A DNA stretch of 64,000 nucleotides, taken from positions 47,842,645 through 47,906,644 of the forward strand of contig NC_088302.1 in assembly GCF_032854445.1 (NCBI RefSeq), read 5' to 3'. Both the position numbers and the translations under genes were made by a program. Positions 23,201 through 29,200 of this stretch are shown in pieces. The notes under the pieces were generated by a model. That model did no database searches, was not told where the DNA came from, and saw nothing but the letters and a program-made list of their open reading frames with translations. Positions within the stretch are counted from its first letter, which is position 1. Each line of letters starts with the position of its first letter. Source of the DNA: Liolophura sinensis (taxonomy: Eukaryota > Mollusca > Polyplacophora > Chitonida > Chitonidae).

Positions 23201-26200
23201 AGAAATGATGTCATCGATGAACATGCTAGAAGAATGGAACCAGCTTAGCAGCCCCAATTTGAGCACTCCTCCCAACCTATTTGCTTTGACAGCTATCACA
23301 GCAGACTACTTAATTTCCACACTGACTGCTTGGGCTTTACGAAAGCCATTTTAACACCATTTTTGTATGTGTTGGCCACATCATTCAGTTGTGACAAATA
23401 TATGTTATACATGTTCTCTAAAAAAACTTCTCACTTAATTGTGGGGGCCAAGAGGTGACGTAGTATCTGCCACAAAAGTGGAACAGATGGGTTTCGATTT
23501 TGAAAGGACAAATTCTTATACCTGACTGGTTTAGCAATTAGGGTACATGTACAAAGAGGAATAGTGCCAGTATACAGTGACTAGATAGTGTCGACTGTGA
23601 CATGATGTATCCATGAGTTTGCGGACAGTGACTAGATAGTGCGGACTGTGGCATGATGTATCCATGAGTCTGCGTACAGTGACTAGATAGTGTCGACTGT
23701 GGCATGATGTATCCATGAGTCTGCGTACAGTGACTAGATAGTGCCGACTGTGGCATGATGTATCCATGAGTCTGCGTACAGTGACTAGATAGTGCCGACT
23801 GTGGCATGATGTATTCAGGAGTCTGCATACGGTGACTAGATAGTGTCGACTGGGGCATGATGTATCCATGAGTCTGCGTACAGTGACTAGAGACTAGATA
23901 GTGTCGACTTTGGCATGATGTATCCAAGAGTCTGCATACAGTGACTAGATAGTGCCGACTGTGGCATGATGTATTCAGGAGTCTGCATACGGTGACTAGA
24001 TAGTGTCGACTTTGGCATGATGTATCCATGAGTCTGCGTACAGTAACTAGATAGTGTCGACTTTGGCATGATGTAGCCAAGAGTCTGCATACAGTGACTA
24101 GATAGTGCCGACTGTGGCATGATGTATCCAGGAGTCTGCATACAGTGACTAGATAGTGTCGACTTTGGCATGATGTATCCAAGAGTCTGCATACAGTGAC
24201 TAGATAGTGTCGACTTTGGCATGAAGTATCCAGGAGTCTGTGTACAGTGACTAGATAGTGTCGACTGTGACATGATGTATCCATGTGTTTGCGGACAGTG
24301 ACTAGATAGTGTCGACTTTGGCATGATGTATCCATGAGTCTGCGTACAGTGACTAGATAGTGTCGATTTTGGCATGATGTATCCAAGAGTCTGCATACAG
24401 TGACTAGATAGTGTCGACTTTGGCATGAAGTATCCAGGAGTCTGTGTACAGTGACTAGATAGTGTCGACTTTGGCATGATGTATCTAGGAGTCTGTGTAC
24501 AGTGACTAGATAGTGTCGACTTTGGCATGATGTATCCATGAGTCTGCATTAGAAATGGGTGTGGCAGTAAGACAGGTCCCTGGTCCTAGGAAACATTGGC
24601 AGCATATCAGAAAGGATGTTGCTTAGCCATAAGCAAACATATGTATTATAAGACACAATTCTGTGCAATAAAGGCTTCATTAAATTTTTTGCATAGTGTT
24701 ACATTATAGACTGTGGTGAGATCATGGCATTAGACATTATATTAAGTTAGTGGCAGTAGAGAAATTGGTCCTAACCTGGTCCTAGATTCCCAGTAGTTTC
24801 ATTGATGACTTCATTTCTTAATATTTCTGACTGTTGAAGGAAATTATGCATAATACTCTTCATTTCTGTAAAGCACACTCTTAGTTTTATAGTACCTTTT
24901 GTGTATCGTTTAATAATGGTGTTGTCATTATAAAATCATCTTATATGAAGAGAGACAGCTTTCCTCTGTTGTTGTTTTCAGTTTCTGCCCAGTTCCTGAA
25001 GGCAGCGAAAACGACATGAGATTTGTGTACTGTGCATGTTGTATCAGTTACATGATTGCTGACTGGTCTGGGGTGAACAGAGACAAAGTAAAGAAGTATG
25101 TCAAGAACAGTCTGGTGCGTGTAGCCATCCTTCTCACAGCCCAGTAGCTGCCTTATCTTCTGGTCACTATGGTTTCTATTCTATGGAATGTCACTAAGTT
25201 GTAGTTGCTGACAATTTTAAATTTCTATAATAATAAAATTCAAGACTCTTTGACCTTAGCTCCAGTTGTTCAGGGGAAGGTTAGCAACAGCAACATGGTC
25301 GTGAGTTTGCCCGGTTTCCTTCAACCATAATGCTGGCTTCAGTCATATATTATTGAGTATGGCGTAAAAAACATCAATTAAATAAATAAATCAGTTCAAG
25401 ACTCTGGCATCATGGCTTCCTCTTCATACGTGGGAAGGTCTGACAGCAACCTGCGGATGGTTGTGAGTTCCAGTGGGTTGTGTCTGATTTCCTCCCACCA
25501 TAATGCTGGCCACCGTCGTATAAGTGAAATATTGTTGAGTACAGCGTAACACACCAATCAAATAAATGAATAAATAACTCAAGACTGTGGAACCAGTTAG
25601 TACAGATGCAGCTTGTGCATAAAATTTGTATTGTATGGAAACCAGAGTTATTCTGATATCTCAAGTGTTAAAGAATATCTATGATATAGATATCTAATAT
25701 ATTCAAAATTCAAATACATTCAAATCTGAAAACAACATGTAAGCAAAGTCACACCAAAAGTATTCCATACAGGCCTGTATGTATATTGCAATTCTGATTA
25801 CAGCCTGTATGTTGATTCAACTGGTTTTGTTTTTTCCAGTCTTATGATGGAGGCATTGGTCAAGGTCCCGGGTTGGAGGCGCATGGTAAGGTTACTCACC
25901 TCAAAATGTTAACACCAACACGGGGCTCTGCCCTGTTAAGGTCCCGTGTTGGAGGCGCATGGTAAGGTTACTCACCTCAAAATGTTAACACCAACACGGG
26001 TTCTCTGCTCTGTCAAGGTCCTGTGTTGGAGGCGCATGGTAAGGTTACTCACCTCAAAATGTTAACACCAACACGGGTTCTCTGCTCTGTCAAGGTCCTG
26101 TGTTGGAGGCGCATGGTAAGGTTACTCACCTCAAAATGTTAACACCAACACGGGGCTCTGCTCTGTCAAGGTCCTGGTTTGGAGGCGCATGGTAAGGTTA

Positions 26201-29200
26201 CTCGCCTCAAAATGTTAACACCAACACAGGTTCTCTGCTCTGTCAAGGTCCTGGGTTGGAGGCGCATGGTAAGGTTACTCGCCTCAAAATGTTAACACCA
26301 ACACAGGGCTCTGCTCTGTCAAGGTCCTGGGTTGGAGGCGCATGGTAAGGTTACTCACCTCCAATTGTTAACACCAACACGGGGCTCTGCTCTGTCAAGG
26401 TCCTGGGTTGGAGGCACATGGTAAGGTTACTCACCTCAAAATGTTAACACCAACACGGGTTCTCTGCTCTGTCAAGGTCCTGGGTTGAAGGCGCATGGTA
26501 AGGTTACTCGCCTCAAAATGTTAACACCAACACAGGGCTCTGCTCTGTCAAGGTCCCGGGTTGGAGGTGCGTGGTAAGGTTACTCGCCTCAAAATGTTAA
26601 CACCAGCACGGGGCTCTGCTCTGTCAAGGTCCCGTGTTGGAGGCACATGGTAAGGTTACTCACCTCAAAATGTTAACACCAGCACGGGGCTCTGCTCTGT
26701 CAAGGTCCTGGGTTGGAGGCACATGGTAAGGTTACTCGCCTCAAAATGTTAACACCAACACGGGGCTCTGCTCTGTCAAGGTCCTGGGTTGGAGGCGCAT
26801 GGTAAGGTTACTCACCTCAAAATGTTAACACCAACACGGGTTCTCTGCTCTGTCAAGGTCCTGGGTTGAAGGCGCATGGTAAGGTTACTCGCCTCAAAAT
26901 GTTAACACCAACACAGGGCTCTGCTCTGTCAAGGTCCCGGGTTGGAGGTGCGTGGTAAGGTTACTCGCCTCAAAATGTTAACACCAGCACGGGGCTCTGC
27001 TCTGTCAAGGTCCCGTGTTGGAGGCACATGGTAAGGTTACTCACCTCAAAATGTTAACACCAGCACGGGGCTCTGCTCTGTCAAGGTCCTGGGTTGGAGG
27101 CACATGGTAAGGTTACTCGCCTCAAAATGTTAACACCAGCACGGGGCTCTGCTCTGTCAAGGTCCTGGGTTGGAAGCACATGGTAAGGTTACTCGCCTCA
27201 AAATGTTAACCCCAGCACGGGGCTGTGTTTCCTCCCACCACTTTATTCTATTTTATTACTTTATTCTAATTTATTACTATATAATTGTAAGTTAGCAGAT
27301 ATTATTTTCATAATATCATTTTTCAAATGTTGTAATTAAATGTAAATAATCTGGTTGAGGAAAACCCTTCATGGCCACTGGCTGTGGGAAATCCTCTATA
27401 AATAAATAAAGCATTAAATTAAATTAAATTAAGTGAAATATTCTTTAGTACGATGTAAAACTCCAATCATGTAAATAAATAAAAAAAGACTTTATGCCCT
27501 AAACAGTCTAAAAAGTAAAAATAAAATCGTAATTAATGCATTAATGATAGGTGTTTCCAGCTCTTCGCCATCGGTAAAAAATATGTCCATTGGCTGTATG
27601 CTGATCAACAAGGGATTTTCGACTTTATGTAGGTTATTTATGTATTTTTCTCTCAGTGCACTCAAATCATTATCTTTTTCTTAAACAAAAATAAAAATAC
27701 AAAAAAATTTCCTAATGTCCCTGGGTTGCGCTCAGCAAAGAATTTTTTAAGGATGGCCTAATTTTTTTAAGGAATAGGGAAAAATTTGTGATGAAGAGCT
27801 AATAAGGTGTCTTAAGAGAGACATCAAATACATTTATCTGTTTCAGGGGGCTCAACATTCTGTGCTATAGCTTCACTAATACTGATGGATGAGTTGGAGA
27901 ATACATTTACTCCAAAAGACTTGAAGAGAATAAAAACCTGGTGTATTCTGCGGCAGCGATCCGGCTTCCATGGCCGACCAAACAAACCAGTTGACACCTG
28001 TTACTCTTTTTGGGTGGCAGCCACACTGCAGGTACTTCGGCTATGGCACAAAAACTTCTGTGGAAACGGTTTTCACCTGACTAAGCCATTACAGGATGTA
28101 TAATATCTAATTCTACACTCAGATGTGTCCACTAACTGTATTATGTTGGTGCCTCATAGAATACAGCAGTCATTTCAGAAGAAGTTTAAATGTCATACTT
28201 CATACATGTAAGAAACTTTAATAGTGAACATCTTACTCAGTTCCTTCTCATGAATTGCTACCTGATTTAAGATTTGGTTTTAACACTTTTACATACAGAA
28301 ACCTTTTACTTTATTTGATAGTTTGGACTCAAACTGCCGAAGACAGATTTGTACACAATATTCAGGGTCAAACTCAAACATTCTGGTTCTCATGAGCTGA
28401 ACATACAGAGACTCTGTACAAATAAACTTGCAAAATTAAGACTCATCAAGGTATTTTTAAAATGAATACAACAGAAATGCTTATTCCTAACACTGACAAA
28501 ATGATTGCTGCAAACACGACGTGATATAAATAGTTTGGCAATTGAGATTACCACATGAAATTTTGCTTTAATCTTCTGCTTGTTTTTCTGAAAATTCTTT
28601 AGTTCGGGACCTTCTGGCATGTTAATCTTAAGTCTTTTTCTCTTCTGACTTCATTACAACATCAGTTTTAAACATGACAAGTGTTCTCAATGCCCACATA
28701 AGTAGCAGGTAGTTATGATTATATAGGTTTTAAAAAAATATGTACAGCTGCTCATTAGGCCAGTTGCAACTTAGCTATAGTACTTTATTACCATAAAATT
28801 GATTGTTTTCTGGGAGTAATACAGATAAATTGAACAATGTCATTTTTATTCAAAGACTATTTCTTTAATTATTGTATAATTATTATATATTTATTATAAA
28901 TTTTTTTTTCAGCTTTTAGGCCTATTTTCTCTGACAGACTTCAGCTCTAACAGAACTTACATACTGTCTACCGAGGGTCATATCACAGGGGGATTCTCCA
29001 AGTGGCCAGATCATAGCCCGGGTAGGAGACAGTAATTCAGGGGGGGATAATTCTTGCAGGAACTTGCATAAAGTCTCTGCCTTTATATACACCTTATGTA
29101 GGCATAGATATATATAGGGTGCAGATCTTAAGCCTGTAGGTCATAAGTAATATGAAAACTGTTATTTAAAATGGAAGGAAGAGTCATTCAGATGGCTTGT

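Follow-up and report, generated by a model that had tools for sequence, protein, structure and literature searches.

Splice donors repeated by a minisatellite are known from three human genes, CBS, ABCA7, and IFI6. In IFI6 (6-16/G1P3), which is interferon-induced, the unit is short, at 12 bp, and reportedly carries the splice donor, as the title of Turri et al. has it. The IFI6 minisatellite is also cited for interfering with splicing (PMC3618361). The CBS variable number tandem repeat (VNTR), with a 31-bp unit, is named c.1444_1467+7(16_21), which we read as 24 exonic bases (c.1444-1467) followed by seven intronic ones, in 16 to 21 copies; it is polymorphic, with a table of alleles, and no short interspersed element (SINE) part is mentioned in those passages of the paper that describe it (PMC2630376). 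In ABCA7, a 25-bp VNTR of intron 18 has the exon 18 donor as the first two bases of its unit; the isoform spliced at the next donor downstream amounts to 2 ± 1%, retains one unit, and is frameshifted, and its share is unaffected by VNTR length, whereas skipping of exon 19 rises with it (PMC5954066). ABCA7 VNTR length is described as highly variable and as tied to disease risk. Here we describe an array of this kind in a mollusc, the chiton Liolophura sinensis (the species name given in a correction by the authors of the published genome), where 18 copies of a 76/77-bp unit begin inside exon 6 of PGGT1B, the gene for the beta subunit of geranylgeranyltransferase I (GGTase-I). It lies in a 64,000-nucleotide stretch, the window, from the forward strand of contig NC_088302.1 (assembly GCF_032854445.1, positions 47,842,645 to 47,906,644); all coordinates below count from the first base of the window.

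The PGGT1B array belongs to the same kind and is not new in kind, having a unit within the range of about 10 to 100 bp, a first copy that by homology holds the genuine donor, and a donor that is kept in the copies downstream. An earlier annotation made from the letters alone (the sequence-only reading) had called the amplification of an exon-intron border inside a housekeeping gene unusual; the three human minisatellites are precedents for it. As in CBS, the end of an exon and its donor stand in tandem, but the human unit is mostly exonic and less than half the length. The ABCA7 repeat also has the donor in tandem, and its next donor can be used, with a frameshift, but its unit is described as intronic, without coding sequence, whereas that of PGGT1B has a coding part; the IFI6 unit, too, is short beside the 76/77 bp seen here. 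Variable repeats at an exon-intron boundary may cause novel introns (PMC2812944), and in a potato RdRp gene a new intron arose from a tandem duplication across such a boundary, most of its splice signals being inherited from the parent border (PMC4974935). That case resembles PGGT1B in that a tandem duplication crosses a splice border, but it comprises one duplication with a new intron detected, and PGGT1B has 18 copies without evidence of one. Judged by title and abstract opening, none of the papers listed by searches for splice-donor minisatellites (18 of 18 and 10 of 40 matches) deals with the PGGT1B array or with a mollusc case.

We put at about 0.7 the probability of the following joint reading: that a tandem duplication between exon 6 and a SINE founded the array, that slippage or unequal exchange enlarged it, that the first donor dominates in splicing, and that the array is mostly tolerated. 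The array occupies 25859-27229 on the plus strand. Tandem Repeats Finder (TRF), run on the window, reports it at 25859-27224 with a period of 76, 17.9 copies, 94% matches, and a score of 2309, and an anchor search with TGGTAAGG gives exactly 18 occurrences on the plus strand of the window, all inside the array; copy 18 (27158-27229) is frayed at its 3' end. The donors lie at 25886, 25962, and so on to 27183, spaced by 76 bases in 12 intervals and by 77 in five, the longer units having TT where the others have one G. All 18 units keep the donor TG/GTAAGG (a slash marks the splice border), and 24 of the 77 unit columns vary among copies, four of these solely through the shortened copy 18.

Each unit consists of the last 25-27 coding bases of exon 6, the donor, and about 50 intronic bases. 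The sequence-only reading had counted 18 tandem copies of 76/77 bases starting in exon 6 and near-identical 5' splice sites in all of them, which agrees with both searches. Its 24 coding bases per copy were right in that exonic sequence is repeated, but the figure is 25 counted from CAAGG, or 27 from the TRF start; its roughly 50 intron bases are intronic, but probably end in a SINE fragment, to judge from the SINE core and tail that follow the array. A search of the whole assembly (609,464,459 bases in 632 contigs) with the unit returned 18 matches, all in the PGGT1B array; only the best candidates were scored, so rarer remnants may exist elsewhere.

The gene itself (20107..30730, plus strand) has nine coding exons, with splice borders set from homology and consensus, not from transcripts: exons 1-5 at 20107-20213, 20602-20726, 21363-21430, 22703-22854, and 24982-25114, and exons 6-9 at 25840-25885, 27847-28031, 28913-29021, and 30582-30730. 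Joined, they give an open frame of 357 residues that matches Pfam Prenyltrans (PF00432, E=3.9e-111) and has as its best PDB match the GGTase-I beta chain 1n4p_B, which we take to be the rat protein (E=1e-157, residues 5-356). Exon 6 is 46 nt long and ends in CAT G (phase 1), between introns of 725 and 1,961 nt. Its 16-residue translation, continued by that of exon 7, aligns without gaps to PDB GGTase-I beta chains, which bears out the earlier claim that copy 1 is the genuine coding end. Across the junction, CAT/G joins GG GGC TCA of exon 7, the natural splice partner (acceptor tttcag/GGGGCTC at 27847), to give the conserved HGGSTFC. The His at which the copied segment ends corresponds in the alignment to residue 219 of 1n4p_B, presumably the active-site His that binds the lipid diphosphate. 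No retrocopy or paralogue emerged when the joined exons 6 and 7 were searched, as protein, against the assembly: of five candidates, all of them scored, PGGT1B exon 7 itself was the sole match at E<=0.001, and exon 6 on its own is probably not long enough to score. Elsewhere in the gene, intron 2 is apparently of the GC-AG type by homology, with donor AAG/GCAAGA (20721-20735, plus strand).

Which donor is joined to exon 7 decides whether a protein is made. Exon 6 would be 46 nt with donor 1 (ATG/GTAAGG, 25886..25891), 122 nt with donor 2, 199 nt with donor 3, and up to 1,343 nt with the last, and reading-frame analysis shows that the PGGT1B frame survives with donor 1 alone. Donor 2 causes a frameshift and a stop in exon 7, and donors 3-18 all meet the TAA at 25963..25965 on the plus strand, which lies within the GTAAGG of donor 2 and halts read-through of that donor in the exon 6 frame. 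Seventeen of the 18 donors thus give a premature stop. Scored with a generic matrix, the exon 6 donor reaches 9.3, the highest among the eight donors of PGGT1B (the other seven range from 4.5 to 7.9); 16 of the array donors have this score, and the other two, which read GTG/GTAAGG, score 8.9.

We predict that the spliceosome would use donor 1 almost always, because long introns flank exon 6, donor 1 is closest to the exon 6 acceptor, and the donors differ little in strength. Human data reported in PMC9225289 point the same way: between near-equal donors flanked by long introns the upstream one is preferred, five minigenes with two identical donors used the upstream one exclusively, and smaller exons are preferred in donor choice. 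The small share of the next-donor isoform in human ABCA7 (2 ± 1%) also agrees with this prediction. Occasional use of donors 2-18 would give transcripts with premature stops that are presumably degraded, and the array would be mostly tolerated as a repeat within the intron, though PGGT1B output may be slightly lower for it. The sequence-only reading had seen here a natural test of 5' splice-site choice; the test is real, but its likely answer is predictable from donor 1 being alone in frame and from the human data as reported there (PMC9225289).

The founding of the unit has probably left traces at the 3' end of the array. A SINE core, GTTTCCTCCCACCA, lies at 27227..27240 on the plus strand; counting both strands, the window has three occurrences of this exact 14-mer, the other two being in SINE copies, against an order-2 Markov expectation of 0.0004. 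A longer core pattern occurs at 8,929 places in the genome with at most one mismatch (control, 0). Local alignment of the array end to four SINE copies in the window gives scores of 28, 28, 26, and 21, with shuffle maxima of 23, 24, 22, and 22. After an AT-rich stretch of 189 bases comes a SINE 3' tail in the same orientation (27430..27480, plus strand), with a local alignment score of 67 against a mean of 17.4 and a maximum of 27 in 300 shuffles. Within the array, GGGCTCTGCCC is present in copy 1 alone, as in the SINE core, the 17 other copies having T for one C. The end of the copy 1 unit, GGGCTCTGCCCTGTT (the final T already belongs to the unit that follows), is close to the SINE sequence GGGCTCTGCCCGGTT, and the joint of copies 1 and 2 now reads CCCTGTTAAGG.

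To judge from these matches, the array probably began with a duplication that brought exon 6 together with a SINE lying in intron 6. The unit likely derives from PGGT1B, since the assembly search found it at no other locus among the best candidates, which were those scored. We envisage a tandem duplication that took in the 3' end of exon 6, the adjoining 5' splice site, and ~50 bases from the start of intron 6, with the left breakpoint inside exon 6 near GGTCAAGG and the right one probably inside the SINE. The junction between exon and SINE may have formed at a shared GGT (exon ATTGGTCAAGG, SINE CCCGGTTTCC), a placement drawn from one genome.

Growth to 18 copies would have followed by slippage or unequal exchange. 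The copies diverge by a mean of 6.6% over the first 70 columns (maximum, 14.5%), and the exonic parts of copies 2-18 hold both silent and amino acid changes, as expected if they are non-coding. Two adjacent blocks of five units on the plus strand, copies 8-12 (26396..26776) and copies 13-17 (26777..27157), differ at two of 381 bases, and this five-unit duplication looks recent. At the heterozygosity of the sequenced animal, given as 1.22-1.26% (PMC11068029), 4.7 differences would be expected between average alleles, with P ~0.15, calculated by hand, for two or fewer. Because the block divergence of 0.5% lies below that heterozygosity, the copy number of the array may segregate, which we take as a hint only.

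Several points weigh against this joint reading. Exons under 50 nt can be poorly recognized, and donor 2 would yield a more ordinary exon of 122 nt. The proximity data are human and concern pairs of donors, not a series of 18, and in the same source the downstream donor is preferred in ~60% of events when strength is not controlled (PMC9225289). In CBS, 844ins68, which duplicates the intron 7/exon 8 junction, favors the more distal site (PMC2630376); this is a different border, yet by analogy it is a caution that the first site need not always be the one chosen. As to the origin, the array-end piece beats every shuffle for three of the four SINE references, and the fourth scores 21 against a maximum of 22. 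The SINE match within the unit, GGGCTCTGCC, falls inside the shuffle range (scores of 20 and 22, against shuffle maxima of 22 and 25) and is not significant by itself, and the core and tail, 189 bases apart, could be two elements.

A rather unlikely alternative, as we judge it, is that donors 2-18 jointly take a meaningful share of splicing, so that copy number, varying between individuals, sets PGGT1B dosage. All 18 donors are intact and score above the other seven of the gene (8.9-9.3 versus 4.5-7.9), 17 of them are unproductive, and the near-identity of the two five-unit blocks would allow copy number to vary, with the P value of ~0.15 making this a hint. The CBS VNTR is reportedly associated with reduced enzyme activity, as the title of Lievers 2001 states, and longer ABCA7 VNTRs are described as going with lower expression. 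In ABCA7, however, use of the next donor is constant across VNTR lengths, and it is skipping of exon 19 that changes (PMC5954066), and the exon-definition data on human donors favor the first one (PMC9225289). We regard as quite unlikely the fuller proposal in which a chimera of exon end and SINE forms, at a splice border of a housekeeping gene, a ladder of 18 near-equal donors, the first alone productive; their number, recently altered by the five-unit block, would heritably tune how much PGGT1B is made, by way of unproductive splicing.

Nor does the conservation of the donors favor such a role. Tests for selection on the extra donors were not significant: the invariance of the six donor columns in all 18 copies has P=0.16, given that 18 of 70 columns vary, and a 14-column invariant run, TGGTAAGGTTACTC, or one equally long, has a 17% chance. 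For 13 columns picked after the fact, P was 0.013, a value that we set aside and do not use as evidence of selection. None of the 17 extra copies has lost its donor, which disfavors a strong cost of the extra donors.

It is very unlikely, in our estimate, that the array is older and that exon 6 was later overwritten by gene conversion, or that a dispersed satellite matches the exon by chance. Conversion between copy 1 and the rest of the array is compatible with data from one genome, but the exonic part of the unit encodes conserved GGTase-I beta sequence, and the assembly search showed the unit at no other locus among the best candidates.

Still less probable is a series of mini-introns, in which introns of 55/56 nt would be removed and in-frame 21-nt microexons (GPGLEAH-like) inserted into the message. 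Besides its donor, the unit does hold a TGTTAAC that resembles a branch point, a run of pyrimidines, and the acceptor AAG, and the in-frame 21-nt microexon with its 55/56-nt intron recurs in 17 of 17 downstream units; the in-frame size, however, follows from the 25 exonic bases minus the four of CAAG and counts as a single observation rather than 17. The acceptors of the PGGT1B model are CAG or TAG in eight of eight cases, not AAG, and 55/56 nt is far below the length of any PGGT1B intron (388-2127 nt). The inserted residues would adjoin the His aligned to residue 219, and one extra unit lowers the match to 1n4p_B from 126.5 to 117.0 bits and, in one alignment, opens a 7-residue gap against 8rdx_B.

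An assembly artefact, in which the repeat was collapsed or inflated or the array is false, is similarly improbable: the array is known from one assembly, built from a modest 14x of HiFi reads and purged of haplotypic duplications so that no internal check is possible, but at 1.37 kb it has one-sixth the length of the mean read (8,347 bp; PMC11068029), which makes an artefact unlikely, and its copies differ among themselves in 24 of 77 columns, anchoring the assembly, and lie at one locus between exons of one gene.

The array has further features of its own. RNA folding of six pieces, from six of the 18 units, gave z-scores of -0.9 for exon 6 with copy 1, -2.8 for copy 2, -0.3 for copy 5, -1.5 for copy 6, -1.0 for copy 10, and -2.1 for copy 18 with its flank. 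In a test for complementary DNA arms in four of the 18 units, the number of mononucleotide shuffles, of 300, that equaled or exceeded the observed value was 28 for copy 1, 0 for copy 2, 299 for copy 10, and 234 for copy 18. In copy 2 (25937-26013), CCCGTGTTGG in the exonic part and CCAACACGGG in the intronic part are perfect 10-bp complementary arms on either side of a loop that holds the donor; the version in copy 1 has one mismatch. A donor hairpin as a general feature was rejected, the genuine copy 1 being unremarkable. On the minus strand of the array (25861-27229), nine of the 18 units have the near-consensus donor GAG/GTGAGT and the other nine have GAG/GCGAGT, so that in half of the units the donors of the two strands overlap. 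Copies 10 and 15 (26549-26574 and 26930-26955) carry an additional donor-like GAG/GTGCGT, with a score of 9.0, a short distance (several bases) ahead of the main donor.

The array lies in a genome rich in minisatellites. Counting arrays of at least 100 bp with a period of at least 10, we found 19 in eleven 10-kb stretches taken at arbitrary places, covering 9,399 of 110,000 bases (8.5%), and eight in the 64 kb of the window (6,167 bases). One of these is a second minisatellite in PGGT1B (51 bp x 19, intron 4, 23573-24547). Another (29 bp x 62, 36275-38079) begins ~40 bases past a SINE tail (36191-36235) and so is also a neighbor of a SINE, and a third (62 bp x 29, 2146-3918) lies in a stretch with strong AT skew. 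Outside these arrays, the translations of minus-strand open reading frames at 17870-18010 and 19500-19690 have KSQILLI and RSPKFCSY in common, and the two places are probably copies of another dispersed repeat.

With 8.5% of the sampled sequence in minisatellites, an array at an exon border is expected by chance unless selection removes it. Random placement with a 60-bp seed would span ~1% of donors, or ~2,300 genome-wide if eight introns per gene are assumed. The mutation that spans a border is not rare, and the filter acts on whether it survives in a coding gene; the PGGT1B array is probably a tolerated by-product of a minisatellite-rich genome. It nevertheless offers a clean natural series, in which one acceptor in the gene for a conserved enzyme faces 18 donors that are nearly identical, as is the exon sequence ahead of each, and donor choice has a simple readout, in that protein would come from donor 1 only. 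With this array, the donor minisatellites known from human CBS, ABCA7, and IFI6 are now placed in a mollusc, and its structure suggests one possible way in which they may start, by duplication between an exon and a nearby SINE.

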